Shown one piece after another: positions 6,900 to 59,138 of a DNA stretch of 64,000 nt. Position 1 is the stretch's first letter. Each line of letters starts with the position of its first letter. Source of the DNA: an uncultured Pelagibacteraceae bacterium (lineage in GTDB: Bacteria > Pseudomonadota > Alphaproteobacteria > Pelagibacterales > Pelagibacteraceae); NCBI GenBank assembly GCA_902603945.1, contig CACKWP010000003.1, positions 1 through 64,000 on the forward strand, given 5' to 3'. The notes beneath the pieces are model-generated. The model was given only the letters and a program-made list of their open reading frames with translations. It had not been told where the DNA came from and did not search any database. The position numbers and the translations under genes are program-made.

Positions 6900-7295
6900 T
6901 TATTCGTAAGATTTCACTTCTTTAATATTCGAGCCTAAACTATTATTAATTGCTAATTTTATTTTAGCTCTTTTATCATTGAATTTGTAAACACTTCTTG
7001 CAAGCTGTATAAACTTATCTCCAAAATCATTATTTTTTTCTGCAGATCTTTTACCATCCTCGATATCCCAGAGTTTTGTATTAATTTCTTTTAATTCGTT
7101 TTCATGTTTCAGAATAGCTGACCCGTCAGGTATGTATTTTTTTCGTGTTGCATTTAAAGAGGACAGCTCTTTGTCAATATGAATTAACTTTTCTTTATTC
7201 GTTATTTTAGATTTTTTTATTTCTAAAATTGTAATTTTATCGATAAGTTCTCCAGCAGATATCTCTGCCAAAATTTTATCTAATTTATTGCTCAT
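6900..7295 (-). CDS. DUF6165 family protein
   Basis: A 131-residue, highly charged, mostly helical protein recognised as DUF6165 from its pattern: EISAGELIDKITILEIK near the start, NTKLWDIEDGKR in the middle and FIQLARSVYKFNDKRAKIK towards the end. No membrane segment or signal peptide. The function of the family is not established; coiled-coil-like heptads suggest it may act as an oligomeric partner. It is divergent from a GT9 glycosyltransferase (46 bases between starts), which hints at a link with envelope glycan assembly, but this is inference only. Confidence 0.75.
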   Translation of the reverse strand: MSNKLDKILAEISAGELIDKITILEIKKSKITNKEKLIHIDKELSSLNATRKKYIPDGSAILKHENELKEINTKLWDIEDGKRSAEKNNDFGDKFIQLARSVYKFNDKRAKIKLAINNSLGSNIKEVKSYE

Positions 7296-7341
7296 ATTTA
7301 AATTTTATTATATCACTCTTTAAATATAACCAGAATTTATA

Positions 7342-8274
7342 ATGTCAAATATATTAATTATTAAACACGGTTCTTTGGGTGATTTAATTCAGGCAAATGG
7401 AGCTATTAAAGACATTAAGAACTTTTACAAAAATCGAAAAGTCTTTTTACTTACCGCTCAACCTTATTCGATATTTATGTCTGAATGCCCATATTTAGAT
7501 GGAGTAATAATAGATAAAAGATTGCCTAGATGGAACATATTTTACTTAAGCAATTTAAAAAAAAAGTTGTCTAGATATGATATTTCTAAAGTATTTGACT
7601 TACAAAATTCTAGTAGAACAAAATTTTATAAAAGATTTATAATTAAAAATATTGAGTGGTCTGACACATCGTCAAGCTTGGAGCCGGATCAAAAAAAAAG
7701 AGATTTCGACAACGAACCTGTTCTCGATAGGATGGAAATACAACTCAAAAAAAGTGGAATAGAACCTGAATTCACCAAAAATATAGATCTAAGCTGGGCA
7801 ACACAAGATATTTCTAGATTACTCAAACAATATACTAATGACGAATATATTTTACTATTTCCGTTTTGCTCAATCAAACATCAAAAAAAAAGATGGCCTT
7901 ACTTTAAAGAGCTGATAATTAAACTTAAACAAGAATATAAAAATAAGTTTCCAATACTTTTAGCCCCAGGGCCTAACGAAATTGATCAAGCAAGTGAATT
8001 GAAAGGCAAAATCGTTTTAGAAAAAAATGAGCCAATTGATATTAAAACTCTTGTATCCCTAATTAATAATGCAAAATTTATAATAACCAATGATACAGGA
8101 CCAGCTCATATAGCTTCACACCTAGATAAAAAAGGTTTAGTTTTATTTGGCAGTCATACCACTGCGAAGAAGGTCAGCATCGAAAGCTTTAACTTTAAGG
8201 CTTTGAGCGTAAAAAATCTTGAAGATTTAAATGTTGATACAGTTTTGAATGAGGTGAAAGCAAGGTTAAATTAG
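7342..8274 (+). CDS. glycosyltransferase family 9 (heptosyltransferase-like)
   Basis: Lipopolysaccharide-type glycosyltransferase of the GT-B fold. The N-terminal motif ILIIKHGSLGDLIQ and the C-terminal donor-site motif ITNDTGPAHIASHL are diagnostic of the ADP-heptose:LPS heptosyltransferase family. Length is 310 residues with no membrane segment, so it is a peripheral cytoplasmic enzyme working on a nascent lipid-linked core. The real donor may be another sugar, since streamlined marine bacteria often have unusual cores. It converges with the following GT4 gene and overlaps it by 9 bases. A second GT9 gene lies at 49094-50047. Confidence 0.88.
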   Translation: MSNILIIKHGSLGDLIQANGAIKDIKNFYKNRKVFLLTAQPYSIFMSECPYLDGVIIDKRLPRWNIFYLSNLKKKLSRYDISKVFDLQNSSRTKFYKRFIIKNIEWSDTSSSLEPDQKKRDFDNEPVLDRMEIQLKKSGIEPEFTKNIDLSWATQDISRLLKQYTNDEYILLFPFCSIKHQKKRWPYFKELIIKLKQEYKNKFPILLAPGPNEIDQASELKGKIVLEKNEPIDIKTLVSLINNAKFIITNDTGPAHIASHLDKKGLVLFGSHTTAKKVSIESFNFKALSVKNLEDLNVDTVLNEVKARLN

Positions 8275-9351
8275 TTCAATATATTTTTTTACTATTATAT
8301 TCCAACTGAAATTTTTCGAAAAATTCAAAGCATTAGTTCCTAACTCTTTATAATGATCATTAACTAAAATTTTTGAAAGTGTATCATATAAAGCATTTAA
8401 ATCATTTCCATTACATAAGTATCCTGTTTGACCACTTTTAATTGCATCTCCTTCACCACCATAAATACCACCGATGGAAGGTGTTCCGTAAGAAGCTGCC
8501 TCAATATAAGTAATTCCAAATCCTTCTACAGATTTTTTGTACACGACAGATGGCATCACAAATACATCAGATTGTTCAAGGAGAGCAACTTTTTCTTGTT
8601 CAGTAGAGCTAAAAATTAATTTTACATTGTTATCTAATTTAAGTTCTCTTTTAAGTTTTTCTAGATTTTTTCTTTCATCACCATCACCAATTGAAACATA
8701 TTTTAATTTTGGGAATTTAGGTAACAAATTTTTGATAGTCATTAAAATATTTTGATGGCTTTTTCTACCATCTAATCTTGACACTGTTATTAGTTTAGGA
8801 CTTGATTGCCCATAAATTTCATTTGCAAAACTTTTTGCTTCATCATTTACTGAAATAGGATAGTTACATCCTGGATTTATTACTGTTACATTTTTCACAC
8901 CAAGTTTCATTGCTAATTCTTTGGTAAATCTTGAATTAGCTATAACATGATCTGCTTTAGCTAGCGCATTTAAAACTCTTTTATGTAAAGAGGACCCTAC
9001 AGGATGATTAATTTCTTTTGAATGTATCAAACAAAATGATTTATTTTTTTTTAACATTTCATTTTCTATATTCTCAATACTTTTCCAATGATCAAAAAAG
9101 GAAGCTCGCAATTCATTCTGTTCCATAAATTCTTTAATTAAATTTGCTTTTCTATACTTTCTAAAAATTTTTAAACCTGCAACTCTTTGAATATTCAATT
9201 TAGAATTTTGATCATAAACTTCAGAATTATCGGAATAATCTGCAAAAACCTTAACTGGCCCGTGATTTAATAATGCGTTTGAAAGACCCTCCATTAGATT
9301 TTGCATTCCACCTAAATCTGGTGGGAAATTTCTAGTTACAATTAAAAACAT
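8266..9351 (-). CDS. glycosyltransferase family 4
   Basis: GT-B retaining glycosyltransferase of 361 residues. The N-terminus FLIVTRNFPPDLGGMQNLMEGLS is the typical acceptor-domain opening. The C-terminal donor domain has LITVSRLDGRKSHQNI, FVMPSV and the E(x7)E signature around EGFGITYIEAASYGTPSIG, followed by GGEGDAI. No membrane segment is seen. Substrate is unknown but the neighbours suggest envelope polysaccharide or LPS. The start codon overlaps the stop of the upstream thioredoxin-like gene by one base (TAATG), so the two are co-transcribed leftwards. Confidence 0.88.
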   Translation of the reverse strand: MFLIVTRNFPPDLGGMQNLMEGLSNALLNHGPVKVFADYSDNSEVYDQNSKLNIQRVAGLKIFRKYRKANLIKEFMEQNELRASFFDHWKSIENIENEMLKKNKSFCLIHSKEINHPVGSSLHKRVLNALAKADHVIANSRFTKELAMKLGVKNVTVINPGCNYPISVNDEAKSFANEIYGQSSPKLITVSRLDGRKSHQNILMTIKNLLPKFPKLKYVSIGDGDERKNLEKLKRELKLDNNVKLIFSSTEQEKVALLEQSDVFVMPSVVYKKSVEGFGITYIEAASYGTPSIGGIYGGEGDAIKSGQTGYLCNGNDLNALYDTLSKILVNDHYKELGTNALNFSKNFSWNIIVKKYIELI

Positions 9352-9908
9352 TAATTAATCCACTTTATATTACAACCCATACTCGGTGTCTGTTTATCTG
9401 GACCTTTTTGAGTTTTGGAGACTATTTTCATTGCAATTTTTAAATCACTCTCCTCATTGTTGACTGGCTTTAAATCTTTTAATTCTTTAAATCGACCTCT
9501 ATATTGAAGTTCTAAATTTTGGTTATAACCAAAAAAATCAGGAGTACATACAGCGCCATATTTTCTCGCTATTTCCTGTGTTTCATCAAATAAATAATTC
9601 ATTTTTCCAAAGTTGTGAGCTTTTGCAAATTTAATCATATTATCAAATGAGTCCTCAGGGTAATTTTTGGTATCATTTGACATAATTGCAATTGAATTAA
9701 CACCATCTTTCCTTAACTCTTCACATTCTTTTGAAAGATCTTTGATGATAGCTTTGACATATGGGCAATGATTACAGATAAACATAATTAAAGTAGCTTT
9801 ATCTCCTTTAATATCATTCAAGGATATTATTTTATTATCAATTGATTTAAGTTTGAAATCCTCAGCTTTTTTTCCAAAATCACAAACTGGGGTTTTAGTT
9901 AGGGCCAT
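9351..9908 (-). CDS. thioredoxin-like (AhpC/TSA-type) protein
   Basis: A 185-residue cytoplasmic thioredoxin-fold protein. The motif FICNHCPYVKAI at the redox position has cysteines spaced CxxC (C-N-H-C), as in the widespread 'thioredoxin family' proteins with NHCPYV. The first strand and loop (FKLKSIDNKIISLNDIKG) follow the peroxiredoxin/AhpC pattern, and ACTPDFFGYNQ is the cis-proline region. It may act as a thiol oxidoreductase or peroxidase. It is the first gene of a two-gene leftward unit with the GT4 gene and is divergent from the gamma-carbonic anhydrase gene (41 bases apart). Confidence 0.85.
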   Translation of the reverse strand: MALTKTPVCDFGKKAEDFKLKSIDNKIISLNDIKGDKATLIMFICNHCPYVKAIIKDLSKECEELRKDGVNSIAIMSNDTKNYPEDSFDNMIKFAKAHNFGKMNYLFDETQEIARKYGAVCTPDFFGYNQNLELQYRGRFKELKDLKPVNNEESDLKIAMKIVSKTQKGPDKQTPSMGCNIKWIN

Positions 9909-50207: not shown

Positions 50208-50981
50208 ATGATGAATAAAAACTTAATAATATCCGATAAGAATTCAAAATCTTTAATTATTAAAAAAAAATTACTGAAAATTTTAAAGATACAAAACTTA
50301 AAAATGAGAAATGTTGTCATTGTAATTGGTGGTGATGGTTTTATGCTTCAAACTTTAAAAACGAACAAAAATATAAACAAATTATTCTATGGAATAAATT
50401 CTGGAAATTATGGTTTTTTGATGAATAAATTTTCTAATAAGAATATTTTAAAAAATATTAATCAATCTAAACTTATAAAAATTTCTCCTTTAGAAATGAA
50501 AGTAAAAAATATTAAAAACAAAGTTAAAAAAAGTTTAGCAATTAATGAAGTTTCAATTTTAAGACAAACAAGACAGGCTACTTCAATATCTTTAAAAATT
50601 GGAAATAAATTTTTGATCAAGAATCTTGTCTCGGATGGCGTTCTAGTTTCTACACCCGCAGGAAGCACAGCTTACAATTTATCTGTTCACGGGCCTATAC
50701 TAAATTTAAATTCAAAAAAAATTTCTATTGCACCAATAAGCCCTTTTAGACCTAGAAGATGGAAAGGAAAAATTGTATCTGACAAGTCAAAAATTCTAAT
50801 AAATAATCTAAATCCAATTAAAAGACCCATTAGTGCTGTTGCAGACAACATTGAAGTAAGAAACGCAAAAACTATATCAATTACAGTCAAACATAAAATC
50901 AAGTTTAACCTTTTGTATGATAAAAATAAGAGTTTGAATAAAAAGATTAAACTAGAGCAATTAATCAAAGAAACTTCATAA
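50208..50981 (+). CDS. nadK: NAD kinase
   Basis: Phosphorylates NAD to NADP. The kinase motif GGDG is in VVIVIGGDGFMLQTLK. INSGNYGFLMNKF is the second conserved block. The third block includes LAINEVSILRQTRQATS, SDGVLVSTPAGSTAYNLS and APISPFRPRRWKG. 257 residues, typical for alphaproteobacteria. It begins 5 to 8 bases (two adjacent ATGs) after the tRNA-Leu CCA and has no visible Shine-Dalgarno. The mRNA is presumably released by tRNA 3' processing and starts nearly leaderless. Confidence 0.93.
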   Translation: MMNKNLIISDKNSKSLIIKKKLLKILKIQNLKMRNVVIVIGGDGFMLQTLKTNKNINKLFYGINSGNYGFLMNKFSNKNILKNINQSKLIKISPLEMKVKNIKNKVKKSLAINEVSILRQTRQATSISLKIGNKFLIKNLVSDGVLVSTPAGSTAYNLSVHGPILNLNSKKISIAPISPFRPRRWKGKIVSDKSKILINNLNPIKRPISAVADNIEVRNAKTISITVKHKIKFNLLYDKNKSLNKKIKLEQLIKETS

Positions 50982-51017
50982 GAGGATTAAAATTTAAATT
51001 ATCGATATTTATATTTT

Positions 51018-51023
51018 TATAAT
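51018..51023 (+). promoter_or_regulatory. -10 box for the DUF4956 cluster
   Basis: A perfect TATAAT 12 bases upstream of the DUF4956 gene start at 51036. No convincing -35 box is seen. If used, the transcript would have a leader of only about five bases. The surrounding sequence is AT-rich, so this is tentative. Confidence 0.35.
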
Positions 51024-51035
51024 GTATAAAAAGCC

Positions 51036-51722
51036 ATGCTAGAAAATTTTCAATTAACAGAGTCCGCGCCGATATCTTTTACTTCGCTATTCATAAATTT
51101 AGGCATAGGCGCAATAGTGTCTATTCTTTTAAAAATTCATTACAAAAAATATGGCTCAACAATAAGTAATCGAGAGGAATTTAGTAATATTTTCCCTTTT
51201 ATTTTATTGACGACTACTCTTGTTATTACAATTGTAAAATCTTCGTTAGCTTTATCGCTTGGTTTAGTTGGTGCGTTATCTATTGTCAGATTTAGAACTC
51301 CGATAAAAGAACCAGAGGAGCTTTCATATTTATTTATTTGTATAGCTGCTGGCCTTGGGTTTGGAGCTAATCAAACTCTCATAACTTTAACTTCTGTGAT
51401 TTTAATTTTGTTATTTATGACTTTATTTAAAATCTTTAGAAAATCAGCAATTGAAAAAAATATGTTTATATCACTTGAGTTAAATACAGCAAAAATTAAG
51501 GATCAAGCAAATTTATTAAAAAAAATAAATAAGATTATTTTAAGTGAGGTCGACAATTTTGACTTAAGAAGATTTGATACAAAAGAGGATAATATTGAAG
51601 CGACTTATATGATAAGTGTTAAAAAAATAGACTCAATTGAAAAATTAATGGGTGACTTAAAAAAAAATTTTCCAGGTATTTCTGTTACTTATATTGATCA
51701 AAATCAAATTCCTAGTATTTAA
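51036..51722 (+). CDS. DUF4956 family membrane protein
   Basis: A 228-residue protein with about four or five membrane helices in residues 12-132, and a soluble C-terminal domain (about 140-228) of alternating strands and helices that should lie in the cytoplasm. The family hallmark is ALSIVRFRTPIKEPEELSYLFICIAAGLGFGAN, a conserved polar stretch in the membrane. Function is not established. In other bacteria DUF4956 genes accompany VTC-domain and CotH-kinase genes, and the same trio is seen here. It is the first gene of a four-gene cluster and is followed after 7 bases by the VTC gene. Confidence 0.82.
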   Translation: MLENFQLTESAPISFTSLFINLGIGAIVSILLKIHYKKYGSTISNREEFSNIFPFILLTTTLVITIVKSSLALSLGLVGALSIVRFRTPIKEPEELSYLFICIAAGLGFGANQTLITLTSVILILLFMTLFKIFRKSAIEKNMFISLELNTAKIKDQANLLKKINKIILSEVDNFDLRRFDTKEDNIEATYMISVKKIDSIEKLMGDLKKNFPGISVTYIDQNQIPSI

Positions 51723-51729
51723 ATTTTAA

Positions 51730-52422
51730 ATGAACAATTTAGTACCAAAGGAAAGTAGATTAGAAATTAAATTTATCACTCACGAAATGAATTATCCTTT
51801 AGTCGCAAATTGGATTAAATTAAATAAAGAAAATTTTAAAAAAAGATATTCTGATAGGATTGTAAATAATATATATTTTGACTCATTTGACTATGAAGCT
51901 TTCAAAGACAATATTTATGGAAGTAGTTCACGTTTAAAAATAAGATATAGATGGTACTCACATTTTAAAGATCAGAAAAGTGGTAATTTAGAATTTAAAT
52001 TTAAAAGAAATATATTTGGTTGGAAAAAAAGATATAAAATCCCAAATTTAAAAATTGACTCAAAACTTAAATTAAATCACCTCAAAAAAGTTTTAAAACA
52101 AAATTTATCGGGTTATGATCAATTAATCTTTGAAAGTAATTGTGAACCAAAAATAATCAATCAATACAAAAGGGAATACTATGAAAATTATAATCAAAAA
52201 TTCAGAATTACCATAGATACTTCACATAATATTTATGACCAACGATTTAAAAAAAAGGTCAATTTGACTAATAAAACTCTAATTCAAAAATACATAGTTG
52301 TAGAATTCAAATTTCATAGAAATAACATAGATTTGTCTAAATCTATGTTAAAATCTTTACCATTTAGAATAAGTAGAAATTCTAAATATATTAATTCAAT
52401 AAGAAGTGTGAGTGGAATTTAA
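51730..52422 (+). CDS. VTC-domain protein (polyphosphate-polymerase-like)
   Basis: A 230-residue soluble protein of the triphosphate tunnel metalloenzyme fold, VTC group. The charged tunnel motifs are visible in order: ESRLEIKF near residues 8-15, NIYFDSFDYEAF, SRLKIRYRWYS, NLEFKFKR, KFRITIDT, YIVVEFKFH and a final RNSKY. In yeast, Vtc4 with this domain makes polyphosphate from ATP; bacterial members are mostly untested. The neighbours suggest it feeds phosphate or nucleotide chemistry to the DUF4956 and CotH proteins. It directly precedes the CotH gene (stop and start adjacent). Confidence 0.82.
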   Translation: MNNLVPKESRLEIKFITHEMNYPLVANWIKLNKENFKKRYSDRIVNNIYFDSFDYEAFKDNIYGSSSRLKIRYRWYSHFKDQKSGNLEFKFKRNIFGWKKRYKIPNLKIDSKLKLNHLKKVLKQNLSGYDQLIFESNCEPKIINQYKREYYENYNQKFRITIDTSHNIYDQRFKKKVNLTNKTLIQKYIVVEFKFHRNNIDLSKSMLKSLPFRISRNSKYINSIRSVSGI

Positions 52423-55071
52423 ATGAGAGCCAAATCGTCAAATGAAAAACACAAAAAAATTATATTAAACAAAAATAAGATTTTTTATACTTCATTTCTA
52501 ATTTTAGCTTTCGCACTATTTTTCCTTCTAGGTACTTGGTCTGAAAAATATGACTATAATAAAAAAGTAAAAATTTTTATTAACGATATATCCGAAACTG
52601 TCTCTAACAGACTATTCTCTAATTTTTATGAAGTAGATAAATTAATAATAGATATGAATTATAGAAATTATCAAAAAATTTTAGATACTAGAAAAGAAAG
52701 TCTTAAATCATTTAGATCAAGTGAAGATATGCATAAATGGGTCAATGCTAACCTTAAATATGAGGAAAAAGATTTTAGGATACAAGCAAAATTAAAAGGT
52801 GTTCATGAAGATCATTGGAAACATCCTTTGAAGTGGTCTTTTAAAATTAAAATGAATGAAAATGATAATGAAGATAAAACATTATTTAATTTAAAGAGAT
52901 TTTCACTTCAGCATGCAAAAACTAGAGGTTATCTCCATGAATGGCTTTTTATGAAAGTTTTAAAAGAGGAGGGATTAATTGCTCATAGAACTAGATTTGT
53001 GAACTTAGTTTTTAATGGGAATAATTTAGGAATTTATAATTTAGAGGAACAACATTCCAAAGAGCTTTTAGAGTCAAATAACAGACGTGAAGGTCCAATT
53101 GTTGGCTTTAATAAAAATTTATGGATTAAAGAAGCTAATAATGTAAGCAAATTAGGTATCAATAACTTAGATGGTTCTTTTTGGAGAGCAGAGATAAAAC
53201 CTGTTCAATTTAAGGATAGCAAAAGGAATACAGAGCAGGAAGTGTATTTGAATGAGGCAATTACTTTACTAGAAAGTTTTAGACAAAATTCAAAAAAACT
53301 CTCAGAAATTTTTGATTTAGATCAATTATCGAAATTAATGGCTGCAAAAGCAATTATGGGATCAATAGAATTTGATTGGAGAGATTTAAAATTTTATTAT
53401 AATCCTCTAACAAAACTACTAGAACCTATTGGTAGAGAGGTTCATGTAGATCTTAATCAGTCTCAAATGAATACTTGGTGGGCTGATTTAAGTCCTGTAA
53501 ATTTTGTTCATTCTTCTGATCAAAAATATTTTCTTTCTTTATTATTTGAAGATAAACTTTTTTTTGAAAAATATTTAAAAGATTTGTCCCGAATGTCTAA
53601 CAAAAACTATGTTAGAAGAGTTATTGCAAAAAACGGAGTAGAATTTAATAAATATAAAGAGGCATTAAATCAAAATTATCCTAGGCAGAACACTTTTTCT
53701 TATAATTATATTGAAAGATATAGAAACGAAATTAAAAAAACTCTTAATCCTATTCAAGGTATAAACTTAAATTATATTGAGTTAAAACAAAATTCACTTA
53801 TCCTAAATGCTTCTAACTTACAAAGATTACCAATAGAAATAATTGGCATACAGGAAACTGGAAAAAATTCTGTTGAATTTAACAAGTCAATTTTTTTAAA
53901 AGGAACACTTTTAAATAAAGCGGTCAAACCTGAATTAATAAAAATTAATTGTGGAAATGAAAATTTATGTAAAAAAGAAAATTTAGCTAACATTAAAATA
54001 ATCTATAAAATATTAGGACAAAATGAAAAAAGAGAAACAGAAATAGCTTATTGGTCAAATACAGTAAATAGCTATCTTTCAAACTTATATGAAAAAAATA
54101 TTCACAGTTTTAGAAATAATAATTTTTTAAAATTTCAAGATAATAGAATTATTTTCAATACAGGTACTGTTGAGATAAGCGAACCTATTTTTATACCTCC
54201 GGATTTTAAAGTTGAGGTTAATCCTGGAACAGAAATAATTTTTTCTAAAAATGGGCATATCATTTCTAAATCTCCTATTTTCCTCAAAGGGGTAGAGGAT
54301 AATCCAATTATTGTAAGATCTAATTTTGAGGGCAATTTACAATCAATAAGATTAGGAAACTTAAATCAAAATAATCAAAAATTAGAAAGTGGTTATGGAA
54401 TTGTTGTAATTAATGCTGATGGTGTTTCAGAAATTGAAAACACCGTTTTTCATAGAATGTCTGCACCAAATCAATTATCAGGATTAGGTTTATTGGGATC
54501 AATAAATTTTTATCAATCTGATGTGAGAATTAAAAATTCTAAATTTTCTGAAAACATTATAGGAGACGATTACCTAAATATCATAAGATCAAATTTTGTA
54601 ATTAAAGATTGTATTTTTCAAGATGTTAATTCGGACGCTATAGATATTGATTTTAGTAAAGGTATTATGTCAAAATTAGATTTTAGAGACACAGGCAATG
54701 ATGCTTTAGATTTTTCAGGCAGTGATGTAGAACTAAAAGATATAGTTGTTTATGGCGCAGGCGATAAAGCAATAAGTATCGGCGAAAAAAGTAAAATTAG
54801 CATAGAGGATATTTCAGTATTTGATAGCAACATCGGCCTTGCGAGCAAGGATAATTCTAATGTTAATGCTAACAAAGTGAAAATTTCAAATACAAGATAT
54901 GGAGTAGTGTCCTATATGAAAAAAAATGAATATGGACCCTCTAAAATTATTATAAGTGATATCTTAGTTTCCAATAGTGAACAAAAATACTTAGTAGAAA
55001 AAGGTTCTAGCATAAAAGTTGATAATCGTGATATACCAGCAGTAGATTTCGATTTTAAAAATTTTATGTGA
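52423..55071 (+). CDS. CotH-kinase domain protein with beta-helix
   Basis: A large 882-residue protein. Residues about 18-38 form one membrane anchor. Residues about 75-420 form a CotH-like kinase domain, with RFSLQHAKTRGYLHEWLFMKVLKEEGLIAHRTRFVNLVFNG, LGIYNLEEQHSKELL and DWRDLKFYYNPLTKLLEPIGREVHVD, which fit the atypical kinase fold. Residues about 575-880 form repeats of short strands rich in N, D, S and I (such as IKDCIFQDVNSDAIDI and ALDFSGSDVELKDIVV), typical of a right-handed parallel beta-helix. The C-terminal parts should be periplasmic. Substrate unknown. It starts on the base after the VTC gene and ends 9 bases before the next. Confidence 0.8.
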   Translation: MRAKSSNEKHKKIILNKNKIFYTSFLILAFALFFLLGTWSEKYDYNKKVKIFINDISETVSNRLFSNFYEVDKLIIDMNYRNYQKILDTRKESLKSFRSSEDMHKWVNANLKYEEKDFRIQAKLKGVHEDHWKHPLKWSFKIKMNENDNEDKTLFNLKRFSLQHAKTRGYLHEWLFMKVLKEEGLIAHRTRFVNLVFNGNNLGIYNLEEQHSKELLESNNRREGPIVGFNKNLWIKEANNVSKLGINNLDGSFWRAEIKPVQFKDSKRNTEQEVYLNEAITLLESFRQNSKKLSEIFDLDQLSKLMAAKAIMGSIEFDWRDLKFYYNPLTKLLEPIGREVHVDLNQSQMNTWWADLSPVNFVHSSDQKYFLSLLFEDKLFFEKYLKDLSRMSNKNYVRRVIAKNGVEFNKYKEALNQNYPRQNTFSYNYIERYRNEIKKTLNPIQGINLNYIELKQNSLILNASNLQRLPIEIIGIQETGKNSVEFNKSIFLKGTLLNKAVKPELIKINCGNENLCKKENLANIKIIYKILGQNEKRETEIAYWSNTVNSYLSNLYEKNIHSFRNNNFLKFQDNRIIFNTGTVEISEPIFIPPDFKVEVNPGTEIIFSKNGHIISKSPIFLKGVEDNPIIVRSNFEGNLQSIRLGNLNQNNQKLESGYGIVVINADGVSEIENTVFHRMSAPNQLSGLGLLGSINFYQSDVRIKNSKFSENIIGDDYLNIIRSNFVIKDCIFQDVNSDAIDIDFSKGIMSKLDFRDTGNDALDFSGSDVELKDIVVYGAGDKAISIGEKSKISIEDISVFDSNIGLASKDNSNVNANKVKISNTRYGVVSYMKKNEYGPSKIIISDILVSNSEQKYLVEKGSSIKVDNRDIPAVDFDFKNFM

Positions 55072-55080
55072 TATTAATAA

Positions 55081-56103
55081 ATGAAAACCATTAAATTTAT
55101 ATCAATTACAATATTAATTTTATTTTTTAATATTTCTAGAATATACACACAAGAAATAAGTGCTGGAACCAAGTTTATAGTTGCTGGACATTTATATCCT
55201 ATAACTAAAGATCAGAAGAAACTTAATAAATTTGGTGAAAAAGTAAACTCACATAACGCTGATTACGTTTTTTTATTAGGCGACTCAGATCTGCAAAATA
55301 AAGATATTTTTGATTATTTTAATACAATTATAGACTCAAAATTATTCTTTTCACCAGGCAATAACGAATTAAGAATTTCTAAAGAAAATTATATAACAAA
55401 TGTTGGATATCTAAACAAAGTAATTGTCGAAAAGGATGTTAAATTTATATTGTTAAATTCTTCAGATAGCAAAGAAAATATAATTAAATTTTTACAAGAA
55501 AATCTGAAAGATGATTTCCAAAATGGACCAACAATTTTATTAACTCATCATCGTATCTGGGATGATACTATAATTGACCCTAAACCTTACATGCATGATA
55601 AAAGTTATTATTTTGAAGATATATTTCCAATTATAAAAGACAAGATTGATTATATTTTTGCAGGTAATTCAAAAAGACAATATTTTAGAGACTTAGTTGA
55701 GTCGATTGCATACGGCAAACAAAACGTAAATTTGATTTATTGGAGTGATAAAATTGAAAATTTAGAAGCCTATTCTGTTGGAATGGGAAATGGTGATCCA
55801 AAAGCATCTTTTGTGGTGGTAGATATTTTAAAAGAAAATTTGCTAATCAAGGGTGATTATTCGACAATCGAAAATTACGACATATTACCCAAAAATTTAA
55901 TTCAATATAATAAAAGAGGTCTTTCTTTAGAATTTGAGTCAGAATTTAAAGATTTCGCTAGAGAAAAATTTTTCCTAGTGAAGTGGAAGAAATTTTACAT
56001 AGCTATTCTACTAATATTCTTAATTATCTTTTTATTGATAATACTTTTATTAAAAAGTAGACGCAAAATTAAGTTTTTAACAGAAAAAAAAGATTTAAAT
56101 TAA
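55081..56103 (+). CDS. calcineurin-like phosphoesterase, degenerate, membrane-anchored
   Basis: A 340-residue exported protein with an N-terminal signal or anchor (residues about 5-23) and one C-terminal membrane helix (about 305-325) followed by a basic tail. The middle looks like a metallophosphoesterase: VFLLGDSD, FSPGNNELR and ILLTHHRIWDD. The first DxH motif reads VAGHLYP, GNHE reads GNNE, and the final GHxH reads AGNSKRQYF. So several metal ligands are missing, and it may be inactive or metal-poor. It closes the DUF4956/VTC/CotH cluster. Another family assignment is possible. Confidence 0.6.
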   Translation: MKTIKFISITILILFFNISRIYTQEISAGTKFIVAGHLYPITKDQKKLNKFGEKVNSHNADYVFLLGDSDLQNKDIFDYFNTIIDSKLFFSPGNNELRISKENYITNVGYLNKVIVEKDVKFILLNSSDSKENIIKFLQENLKDDFQNGPTILLTHHRIWDDTIIDPKPYMHDKSYYFEDIFPIIKDKIDYIFAGNSKRQYFRDLVESIAYGKQNVNLIYWSDKIENLEAYSVGMGNGDPKASFVVVDILKENLLIKGDYSTIENYDILPKNLIQYNKRGLSLEFESEFKDFAREKFFLVKWKKFYIAILLIFLIIFLLIILLLKSRRKIKFLTEKKDLN

Positions 56104-56105
56104 TC

Positions 56106-56181
56106 TGGTGCCCTCACACGGACTCGAACCGCGAACCTATTGATTACAAATCAATTGCTCTACCAATTGAGCTATGAGGGC
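56106..56181 (-). tRNA. tRNA-Thr (anticodon TGT)
   Basis: Minus-strand tRNA of 76 bases including an encoded CCA. The acceptor arms GCCCTCA and TGAGGGC pair fully. The anticodon stem ATTGA/TCAAT encloses the loop TTTGTAA, anticodon TGT, reading ACA. The D-arm AGCTCAATTGGTAGAGC and T-arm CGCGGTTCGAGTCCGTG are normal. It lies just beyond the CotH cluster on the other strand. Confidence 0.96.
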
Positions 56182-56191
56182 AAAAAAACTC

Positions 56192-56220
56192 TATTTAAGA
56201 TATATTTACACAATCTTCAA
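56192..56220 (-). promoter_or_regulatory. possible promoter of tRNA-Thr
   Basis: On the minus strand, TTGAAG (56220-56215) and TAAATA (56197-56192) are 17 bases apart, upstream of tRNA-Thr, which starts at 56181. Boxes match only moderately. Confidence 0.3.
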
Positions 56221-56272
56221 CTAATTTATACTATGGTTTTTTAATATATATTGTTAAGTATTCAATCACTAA

Positions 56273-57070
56273 ATGTTTTTACCGGAAGTATACAAATCTA
56301 AAAAAAAGAAAATTTTTTTTGAAAATGAAGTAAGGCATAAAATTTTCAAAACTGATGATAAAAATTTAAATTATTTATTACATAAAAGATTTTATTGGAT
56401 GAAAAAATATTTTAAAAAAAAAGATCAAATAATAATTGAATTAGGGTCTGGCAGCGGTTGCATCAAAAAAATCTTAAATGATAAAAAAATTATTTTAACA
56501 GATATAATAAAATATCCATGGATTGATAAAAAAATTGATATGACAAAAGTAAATCTAGAAAAAAAATATAAGAATAAAGTGGATATTTTTATAATTAATC
56601 ACGCATTACATCACTCTTCTAATCCAGTTAAATGTTTAAAAAAACTTTATAAATATCTTAAAAAGAATGGATGTATTTTAATCAATGAACCAGAAACTTC
56701 ATTTTTTTTAAAATTAATTCAAATTATTACACGTGACGAGGGTTGGTCCTACAAAAAAAATATTTTTAAGGTTAACAAAAAAGAAACACGCGAAGACAAA
56801 GATCCATGGTTTTCGAATACCGCAACAGCCGAACTCCTTTTTAGAGATAAAATTAAATTTAAAAACTATTTTCCAGAGTATGATATCCTTAAAAATGAAT
56901 TATCTGAATTTCTAATTTTTATAAATTCGGGTGGTGTAAACTCAGACATTTTTAAGATATCTTTAAATTATCCTTTATTAAAAATTTTAGATTTTGTCGA
57001 CTGGGCTTTAATTAAAATTTTTCCAAGAATATTTGCACTTAATAGATCAATTGTTCTGAAGAAAAATTAA
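56273..57070 (+). CDS. class I SAM-dependent methyltransferase
   Basis: A 265-residue methyltransferase with motif I IIIELGSGSGCIKKIL near residue 62, a post-I acidic stretch (ILTDIIKYPWID) and the motif III region FIINHALHHSSNPVKCLKKLYKYLKKNGCILINEPE. The HALHHxxNP pattern is common in SAM methyltransferases of the Methyltransf_11 type. Substrate unknown; neighbours suggest envelope lipids or glycans. Its stop shares TTAA (57067-57070) with the stop of the convergent membrane protein gene. Confidence 0.8.
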   Translation: MFLPEVYKSKKKKIFFENEVRHKIFKTDDKNLNYLLHKRFYWMKKYFKKKDQIIIELGSGSGCIKKILNDKKIILTDIIKYPWIDKKIDMTKVNLEKKYKNKVDIFIINHALHHSSNPVKCLKKLYKYLKKNGCILINEPETSFFLKLIQIITRDEGWSYKKNIFKVNKKETREDKDPWFSNTATAELLFRDKIKFKNYFPEYDILKNELSEFLIFINSGGVNSDIFKISLNYPLLKILDFVDWALIKIFPRIFALNRSIVLKKN

Positions 57071-58383
57071 TTATAATAAAAATTAGCAATTGATAAAAAA
57101 ATTGAAAAATAAGCAAAAATAAGTAAAGCCCTAATTTTAGTGAAATATTTTACTGATTTAAATAAAGAAAAAACTAAAATTAAAATTATTGGGTCAAAAT
57201 ATTCTTGCATCAGTGGCCAAAGCAATAAAGACAATAGAAAAAAATACGCCAAATAAATAACGTCAATTTTATTTAGTGTATAAAAGAAAAAAATTAAGAA
57301 AAAAGAAAAAAAGAAAAAAATATAGGTTATTATTTCTCTAAAGAACAAATCATCTGTGATTAAAATCGAAAATTTGTGAACAATGCCTAATCCAATCCAA
57401 TAATCTTTTACTGTAAATTTTTCAAAATCAAATAAATAAAACAGACAAAAAACAAATAATAAAATTAAAAGTAAAAAAATATAAGTTTCTTTTTTGTGAA
57501 AAACTTTTTTTAAATTATTAGCAATATTTTTGTTGGTGAATAATAATATAGGTAAAATATAAAAACTAATTATAGTTGCAGCATATCCTAAATGGATAAA
57601 ATAAATTTTACTAAAGTCATCAATAGCTGTGATAGTATTCTGGTTAGCTAGCTGAGTTTTTGTTGGAACTATACCATCCCAATACATTATCAAAAATAAA
57701 TAAGGAATGGACAAAATAGTATAACTTAAAAAAGTAATGAATTTAATTCTCAAATTGATTTGAGAAAATATAATCATTAAGAAACTTACAAGCGGTATAA
57801 AAGCCAATTTGAGATCAAAATAAACCGATAAAGAACTAAAAAAAATTAAAAATATTAGGTCAAAAATTCTAAAATGACCTATATTTAAAACTTTGTATAA
57901 AAAATAAAAGCTTGTTATAGCAGTTATTAAACCATAGTTTTCGTTTAGACCCCAGAATGCACTTGTTCTATAGTAAGGACTTAAATAAATTAATGATGCT
58001 ATCAAAAATAAAATTTCTTTTTCTTCATTAAAAAATTTTTTTCTTAAAAGTTTATAAAATATAATTGGTCCTATCAAAGATATTAAAAAACTTGTAAATC
58101 TATAAATTTCATAATTATTAAAAAAAGGATTAAATATTTTTTGTATAATATAAATTAACGGAGTTCTATTACCAAAAAAATCAGGATGCAAAATTGCAGT
58201 AAGTAAATCATTATCTAAAAAAATTTTAATATTAGATTTTATCCACTTTATGTCACCATTATATCCCCCAGCACCTGCAGAATTTTCATCAAGATAAAAG
58301 CCTACAAAAAAACTAATAATTGGCAAAAAAATAATTATCTTAAAAATCGTATTACTTAAATTATATTTTAAATTAGGAAACAT
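57067..58383 (-). CDS. multi-pass membrane protein, probable GT-C glycosyltransferase
   Basis: A 438-residue protein with about ten or more hydrophobic helices. The first extracytoplasmic loop carries an acidic motif, GFYLDENSAGAGGYNGD, followed by a long loop (HPDFFGNRTPLIYIIQ), an arrangement like GT-C enzymes that use polyprenyl-phosphate sugars (ArnT, PMT type). No closer family is recognised. It lies between a methyltransferase gene and rlmB, 8 bases from the rlmB stop and in the same direction, so it may be co-transcribed with rlmB. Confidence 0.55.
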   Translation of the reverse strand: MFPNLKYNLSNTIFKIIIFLPIISFFVGFYLDENSAGAGGYNGDIKWIKSNIKIFLDNDLLTAILHPDFFGNRTPLIYIIQKIFNPFFNNYEIYRFTSFLISLIGPIIFYKLLRKKFFNEEKEILFLIASLIYLSPYYRTSAFWGLNENYGLITAITSFYFLYKVLNIGHFRIFDLIFLIFFSSLSVYFDLKLAFIPLVSFLMIIFSQINLRIKFITFLSYTILSIPYLFLIMYWDGIVPTKTQLANQNTITAIDDFSKIYFIHLGYAATIISFYILPILLFTNKNIANNLKKVFHKKETYIFLLLILLFVFCLFYLFDFEKFTVKDYWIGLGIVHKFSILITDDLFFREIITYIFFFFSFFLIFFFYTLNKIDVIYLAYFFLLSLLLWPLMQEYFDPIILILVFSLFKSVKYFTKIRALLIFAYFSIFLSIANFYYN

Positions 58384-58391
58384 GATTTATT

Positions 58392-59138
58392 TTATTTCTT
58401 TCTAATATTGAATAAATGTTGACATACAATTGAAACAGTGTTCGATATATTTAAACTTTCAATTTTGTGACTCATTTTTATTTTAAATCTAAAATCAGAA
58501 TTTTCTAATAATTTTCGTTTAATCCCAAAACCTTCAGAACCGAAAAGTAAAATATTTTTTCCGTTCCATTTGTTTTCAGTAAAATCCTTTGAGCCTTCAA
58601 CATCAAATGCGCTAACCCAAAAGTCTTTGGTTTTTAAAAACCTTAAAGCGGTACTTATATTTGAAACTCTAAATATTTTTAAATGTTCAACGCCACCGCT
58701 AGCACTTTTATATAAAAGCTTACTTTTAGCAGGAAAAGATCGTTCTTTAACAATCAATCCATCTATTTCAAAGGCAACTGCGCTTCTAATTATCGACCCT
58801 ATATTCCTTGGATCGGTAACCTCATCAAGCGCAATTATATTAAGATTATTATTTTTATTATTGTTAACAAACTCTTTTAAGGTAACCTCTTCTAATTGTT
58901 CGACTTCAGCTATCAACCCTTGATGAGCAGTTTCATCCCTTCCACACAAATTATCTAATTCCTTTTTAGATTTAAAAAAAACGCTTACTTTTTTAAACAA
59001 ATTTAAACTCTGATTTTCCCTATTTATTTTTTTTTGCGCATCTTCAGTCAAAAAAACTCTTTCAATTTTTCTGGAAGGGTTCTTTAGCGCTTCTAAAACA
59101 GCATGTTTTCCTACAATTAAAAAGCTTGTTTTTTTCAT
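58392..59138 (-). CDS. rlmB: 23S rRNA (guanosine-2'-O-)-methyltransferase
   Basis: TrmH-family group 3 SPOUT methyltransferase of 248 residues. The N-terminal substrate-binding domain starts SFLIVGKHAVLEALKNPSRKI. The knot motifs are ALDEVTDPRNIGSIIRSAVAF (motif 1), ILLFGSEGFGIKRKLLENSDFRFKI (motif 2) and ESLNISNTVSIVCQHLF (motif 3). RlmB methylates G2251 in 23S rRNA; other TrmH members use tRNA, so assignment is by resemblance. Divergent from the tRNA-Tyr/tuf operon. Confidence 0.88.
   Translation of the reverse strand: MKKTSFLIVGKHAVLEALKNPSRKIERVFLTEDAQKKINRENQSLNLFKKVSVFFKSKKELDNLCGRDETAHQGLIAEVEQLEEVTLKEFVNNNKNNNLNIIALDEVTDPRNIGSIIRSAVAFEIDGLIVKERSFPAKSKLLYKSASGGVEHLKIFRVSNISTALRFLKTKDFWVSAFDVEGSKDFTENKWNGKNILLFGSEGFGIKRKLLENSDFRFKIKMSHKIESLNISNTVSIVCQHLFNIRKK

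Follow-up and report, generated by a model that had tools for sequence, protein, structure and literature searches.

A conserved DUF4956-VTC-CotH membrane module with a linked metallophosphatase-like protein in a Pelagibacteraceae genome

The four adjacent genes at positions 51036–56103 of the window, which is the whole 64,000-nucleotide stretch of Pelagibacteraceae DNA analysed here, are part of a real conserved module, and their adjacency goes beyond chance. Polyphosphate is the probable product of the encoded device, formed at the inner membrane beside an unusual kinase-like surface enzyme. Its breadth independent of Pel loci is new, as are a β-helix-fused CotH subfamily with a replaced Asp228 and a linked subfamily of metallophosphatase-like proteins. 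Judging from this distribution, most VTC-type polymerases of bacteria may be parts of a single membrane module and not of storage metabolism. An earlier note on this DNA, made from the sequence alone, had interpreted the cluster as a device that makes a phosphate donor inside the cell and uses it on a surface molecule outside, an interpretation that is partly supported by the results described below.

The gene cluster and its conservation

The four genes are co-directional on the (+) strand with gaps of 7, 0 and 9 bases, and the coordinates, strand and gaps given in the earlier note were reproduced exactly. They encode a DUF4956 membrane protein of 228 aa (51036..51722; Pfam PF16316, E 7e-17), a soluble VTC-type triphosphate-tunnel enzyme of 230 aa that is a predicted polyphosphate polymerase (51730..52422; PF09359, E 1e-26), a membrane-anchored and predicted periplasmic CotH-β-helix protein of 882 aa (52423..55071; Pfam CotH, E 2e-9) and a metallophosphatase-like protein of 340 aa (55081..56103; Pfam Metallophos, E 0.011). 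The first three lie above the curated Pfam cut-offs and the fourth below, with homologues of the latter in other phyla passing the Metallophos cut-off, and the gene identities proposed previously were recovered in this way. The window genome, which is 838 kb in size and 76% complete, has a single copy each of DUF4956, VTC and CotH; the GC content of the window is about 30%. From its size and GC content, its Pelagibacteraceae relatives that bear the module, and one window protein with 72% identity to a Pelagibacteraceae protein, the genome appears to be SAR11-like. As judged against the closest sister genome (G015, locus L025), all four genes are under strong purifying selection, with dN/dS values of 0.025 for DUF4956, 0.096 for both VTC and CotH, and 0.063 for the fourth gene, at or below the range of the flanking genes (0.10-0.14). 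Scans for promoters and terminators gave matches near shuffle expectation.

The slot between the genes for NAD kinase and a TrmH-type methyltransferase (50208-59138), with a GC content of 24.5% as compared to 30.2% in the remaining window, holds different versions of the module among close relatives: type A in the window genome (G000) and G015 (L025), and a divergent DUF4956-340aa-CotH-VTC set in G033 (L027). It looks as if one-function cassettes were swapped at this place. A hydrophobic 438-aa protein encoded at 57067-58383 (-), for which no Pfam or NCBIfam match was obtained, has a homologue in the same slot of G033 (L027 4032-5345). In the divergent SAR11 version, the gene between those for DUF4956 and CotH encodes a membrane-anchored protein of about 340 aa that has no Pfam match (L027 6145-7167, L028 13013-14041), and in L028 the module VTC gene is directly followed by a gene for an 824-aa protein (7133-9607) that carries a sulfatase-type domain (PF00884).

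Among related genomes the module is patchy, VTC being present in 19 of 150 (about 13%). In nearly all of the 20 regions fetched around the relatives' VTC matches, the genes for DUF4956, CotH and VTC are neighbours, with at least four different gene orders; in the few cases of an incomplete trio, the contig breaks off within the cluster. The CotH Pfam model matches only five of the 150 relatives, as it fails to recognise the majority of SAR11 CotH copies, which have diverged too far; these copies were identified via their similarity to the window CotH protein.

Starting from DUF4956 only, a scan of named bacterial and archaeal genomes yielded 80 loci, which span about a dozen phyla, and neighbours within 8 kb were counted for the 43 interior loci, i.e. 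those away from contig ends. Dokdonia pacifica DSM 25597 is one species with the module (locus L075), and Corynebacterium glutamicum has matches to each of the three families, counted as presence in the genome. VTC was found at 42 of these, CotH at 36, a β-helix CotH at 29 and the metallophosphatase-like subfamily at 13, fractions that describe the part of the DUF4956 family most similar to the query and sharing one common motif. Since CotH was not detected within 8 kb of DUF4956 at the other 7 of the 43 loci, the core pair DUF4956-VTC does not need CotH. A scan anchored on VTC in 398 genomes of the phylum gave few VTC genes, and all eight above-cut-off matches, the window aside, adjoin DUF4956 or CotH/β-helix genes. 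The co-conservation check proposed in the earlier note is thus strongly positive: the note was right to suppose a joint action of the genes, and its remark that other bacteria have the trio too was correct but understated. No relative was found among viral contigs scanned with a DUF4956 pattern, and viral carriage of the module was rejected on this basis. Among the operon neighbours, which also include glycan genes (recorded as presence only), Metallophos is the most frequent Pfam family (10/114).

Predicted polyphosphate synthesis and its membrane partner

The VTC domain scores 94.1 bits, as compared to a curated cut-off of 23, and its profile matches yeast Vtc4 structures with E values of 4e-11 to 5e-13. 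Residues R72 and R74 correspond to R264 and R266 of Vtc4, K90 to K281, E192 to E426, K194 to K428 and K219 to the catalytic K458, and the equivalents of these six Vtc4 residues are invariant in 62 of 62 VTC sequences. In yeast, the R264A/R266A/E426N replacements impair VTC (PMC9911596). Hydrolytic tunnel enzymes (TTMs) possess an acidic patch that holds a second metal (PMC4641920). In an alignment with E. coli ygiF, which is a weak match (probability 39) with the ExExK and ExE motifs in register, two of the three glutamates of this patch (E4 and E162) are replaced by R10 and K194, as in Vtc4, and the third is kept as E12. Since all Vtc4-type residues are retained and most of the hydrolase metal site is lost, we predict that the protein acts as a polyphosphate polymerase, which is a better prediction than a hydrolase, with the retained E12 leaving some chance of hydrolysis. 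No transmembrane segment was found by hydropathy. A search of the literature, with subscription journals outside its reach, gave no paper on the activity of a bacterial VTC protein.

The AF2 model of the DUF4956 protein (pLDDT 88.6) consists of membrane helices, with transmembrane segments at roughly 15-39, 53-67, 71-86, 93-110 and 114-134, followed by a C-terminal ACT/ferredoxin-like domain (141-221) that matches such folds with Z 9-11. This domain and the loop RFRxxIKEPEEL, which belongs to the near-invariant motif LALSLGLVGALSIVRFRxxIKEPEEL, are predicted to lie on the cytosolic side according to the positive-inside pattern. The ACT-like domain filled the VIA-align list, and the lack of listed folds for the membrane region is no sign of a new fold. 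A similarity to MgtC appears weak but repeated: the MgtC C-terminus (2lqj) is among the Foldseek matches of the model, the membrane domain of MgtC aligns weakly in hhalign (E 2e-4, probability 48), and the Pfam MgtC model reaches E 0.012 on one DUF4956 homologue. The resemblance of DUF4956 to a channel is no greater than that to MgtC, which is a regulator.

In the mechanism that we propose, VTC would, as predicted from its residues, polymerise the phosphate of ATP to polyphosphate at the cytosolic face of the inner membrane. The near-obligate pairing and the topology further suggest that DUF4956 is the membrane partner of VTC, which may either conduct the growing chain outward or control VTC via its ACT-like domain, and which would then act in the role of yeast Vtc1 plus the SPX domain.

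The regulatory features of DUF4956 can also be explained if the module is a controller that responds to phosphate or ATP status. DUF4956 would then be an MgtC-like regulator, VTC would set polyphosphate or triphosphate levels without export of polyphosphate, CotH would use ordinary ATP or be regulatory itself, and the output of a surface polymer would be tuned to phosphate status. Apart from the MgtC similarity and the ACT-like domain, observations on S. intermedius (PMC12345266) are in agreement with such a function. Its genes SIR_1592-1594 represent the accessory set for CotH, polyphosphate polymerase and DUF4956 homologues that had been noted beside pel operons of Gram-positive bacteria (PMC7112168). 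The homologue SIR_1592 was described as MgtC plus ACT, and deletion of the CotH and DUF4956 homologues altered Pel level and aggregation in S. intermedius, the DUF4956 deletion raising Pel and the CotH deletion lowering it, whereas no such change was reported for the VTC homologue (PMC12345266). Furthermore, a gene for a PHO4 phosphate permease lies downstream of the DUF4956-VTC pair in a genome of the same class (L131). However, the similarity to MgtC is weak, and a status controller leaves unexplained why the downstream proteins are membrane-anchored and predicted to lie outside, and why a specific metallophosphatase subfamily is tied to the β-helix. We regard this explanation as rather unlikely.

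The predicted periplasmic proteins and their possible role

Whereas VTC is predicted to be cytosolic, the two downstream proteins of the putative polyphosphate-making module are predicted to lie outside the inner membrane, and the anchoring of both that was postulated earlier agrees with transmembrane segments found by hydropathy. The CotH protein has a single N-terminal segment (about 20-38), a CotH kinase fold (70-449), a low-confidence linker and a right-handed β-helix (about 598-877). Its AF2 model has a mean pLDDT of 65, with values of mostly 70-90 in the kinase part and mostly above 75 in the β-helix, the linker being poor. The kinase part matches B. cereus CotH (5jd9) with Z 26.3 over 333 residues (profile E 4e-15), and the β-helix matches AlgG/AlgE/polygalacturonase-type helices with Z of about 20-22, AlgG giving about 22. 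Profiles or models were needed for such matches, as single-sequence PDB searches with the CotH and the fourth protein gave nothing useful.

The active-site region of CotH (residues 316-339; 53368..53439, + strand) was located by profile alignment to 5jd9 and analysed by column statistics. At all three positions that were checked the window protein deviates, with E316, D321 and E339 replacing the canonical Asp228, Asn and Asp251. The Asp pair of B. cereus 5jd9 has the same 23-residue spacing as Asp228/Asp251 of B. subtilis CotH, in which mutation of either residue gave an inactive enzyme (PMC7821199). Among homologues that carry a β-helix, position 228 is His in 52 of 63 and Asp in 2, as compared to Asp in 10 of 13 homologues that lack it (p 2e-8, a value that is optimistic because related genomes were treated as independent); two proteins with a non-Asp residue but no β-helix (L087, L123) have scores typical of the β-helix group. 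Glu at both 228 and 251, with Asp for the conserved Asn, is a trait of the window lineage, common to L025, L026 and L060. These data define a large subfamily of CotH proteins in which a catalytic residue is changed and the β-helix is of glycan type. The atypical kinase suggested in the earlier note is borne out by the fold, but since the window protein deviates at three of three active-site positions and the subfamily mostly has His at 228, a plain kinase label is unsafe. At three loci (L047, L050, L051) a second CotH-β-helix protein with degraded-looking kinase motifs is present in the same region.

Most of the near-invariant charged residues of the protein are located in the β-helix. Column conservation in 68 proteins from about a dozen phyla revealed an Asp/Lys/Glu ladder (54568..54924, + strand) formed by D716, N719, D738, D741, D743, D760, D763, D781, K782, E788, K809, D810, K833 and K834, with a spacing of about 22 residues, which is one coil. 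This, together with the fold matches to AlgG, AlgE and polygalacturonase and the loss of Asp228 from the kinase part, could indicate that the protein is no phosphotransferase at all, the kinase fold serving as a scaffold and the β-helix being the enzyme, with epimerase, lyase or hydrolase activity towards a glycan of the envelope. It would then be surprising that the kinase domain keeps Glu209 fully and conserves the Asn/Asp and Asp/Glu positions, and that the substitute for Asp228 is mostly one residue, which looks like changed chemistry and not like decay. Some module CotH proteins (L026) moreover have no β-helix. An enzymatic role of the β-helix in place of the kinase fold is, in our opinion, distinctly doubtful.

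The fourth protein has an N-terminal signal-like helix, a predicted periplasmic domain and a C-terminal transmembrane segment (306-324, hydropathy). Its metal ligands are partly degenerate (G36-H37, G67-D68, G93-N94-N95, H156, G195-N196), and according to a subfamily HMM and column counts for 28 sequences, the block-I Asp and the His of the GNH motif are missing in the window protein. The phosphoesterase-like character that was assigned to it earlier thus holds as far as membership of a metallophosphatase-like subfamily is concerned, but several metal ligands are missing. The subfamily is found near the core genes at about 20 of the 80 loci, and it is linked to the β-helix, occurring at 21 of 50 β-helix-type loci as against 1 of 30 others (p 9e-5, again optimistic in view of the relatedness of the genomes).

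As the last step of the proposed mechanism, the anchored CotH-β-helix protein would modify a surface glycan or envelope molecule outside the inner membrane, possibly by phosphoryl or related transfer in a rebuilt active site that has His or Glu for Asp228. The β-helix with its ladder has a shape typical of glycan-binding helices, and the anchored metallophosphatase-like protein may trim or reverse the modification. We hold this three-step explanation of the inner-membrane module tentatively, giving it as a whole a little less than an even chance. A stricter version, in which polyphosphate made by VTC leaves via DUF4956 and serves outside the cell as phosphate donor for the phosphorylation of envelope glycans by a His-based CotH enzyme, is clearly improbable; if true, it would imply ATP-free extracytoplasmic phosphorylation across about a dozen phyla. 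The predicted topology fits the idea of a donor made inside and used outside, but in S. intermedius the deletion of the VTC homologue lacked the phenotypes reported for loss of the CotH and DUF4956 homologues, which speaks against a strict chain in which VTC supplies the donor for CotH, at least as far as the Pel-linked version is concerned.

Exported polyphosphate could also be the product itself, kept as a periplasmic or surface store that the CotH-β-helix protein binds or anchors and from which the metallophosphatase-like protein frees phosphate. No match to PPK1, PPK2 or PPX was found in four of six module-bearing genomes searched, namely the window genome (76% complete) and three relatives, all of these genomes being incomplete, and SAR11 cells hold a large labile extracellular phosphate buffer (PMC4525184), which would both suit a store. 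PPK1 and PPX are present in the other two genomes. However, the phosphate buffer was reported as general, whereas the module occurs in a small part of the relatives and is found in large-genome bacteria too, and the conserved enzyme-like active site of the CotH domain would have no explanation. We regard a store as very unlikely. With the parts and predicted active sites of the module at hand, a possible export of polyphosphate by bacteria, and its use outside the cell, becomes a concrete question that can be tested.

Comparison with known systems

Each of the four proteins resembles a known family and differs from it in specific ways. DUF4956 shares with MgtC/SapB proteins such as E. coli YhiD a membrane region followed by an ACT-like domain and a weak profile match, but it has its own conserved motif (GALSIVRFR..IKEPEEL) and is linked to VTC. 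The metallophosphatase-like proteins resemble calcineurin-like metallophosphoesterases in that the GD motif and the later His are kept and homologues in other phyla reach the family threshold, yet the first Asp of the family is missing throughout the subfamily, the window protein also lacks the GNH His, and the module subfamily is membrane-anchored. The spore-coat kinases of B. subtilis and B. cereus (5jd9) have the same fold as the module CotH (333 residues, Z 26), which differs by the change of Asp228 to Glu or His, the change of Asp251 to Glu in the window, the membrane anchor, the added β-helix and the absence of spores.

With the eukaryotic VTC complex (Vtc1/Vtc3/Vtc4; PMC9911596) the module has in common a tunnel polymerase domain with all key residues, a membrane partner and, as predicted here, synthesis on the cytosolic side. 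Unlike the eukaryotic complex, it has no SPX domain and no transmembrane domain on the catalytic protein, DUF4956 replaces Vtc1, and predicted periplasmic enzymes are attached.

The accessory set of the Gram-positive pel operons combines the same three families in one cluster, and the description of SIR_1592 as an MgtC transmembrane region plus ACT domain (PMC12345266) matches the DUF4956 model obtained here. Its CotH protein carries FN3 instead of a β-helix, whereas the module CotH is fused to a β-helix and has Asp228 replaced; the Pel-linked system is therefore a relative and not the same device. The present module further differs by an extra metallophosphatase-like gene and by the absence of PelG, which is missing from 19 of 20 module-bearing genomes (the window genome, 76% complete, and 18 of 19 others). 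The authors of a 2025 paper found no such trio synteny outside Pel loci (PMC12345266), and the wide spread of the module outside Pel runs counter to their statement.
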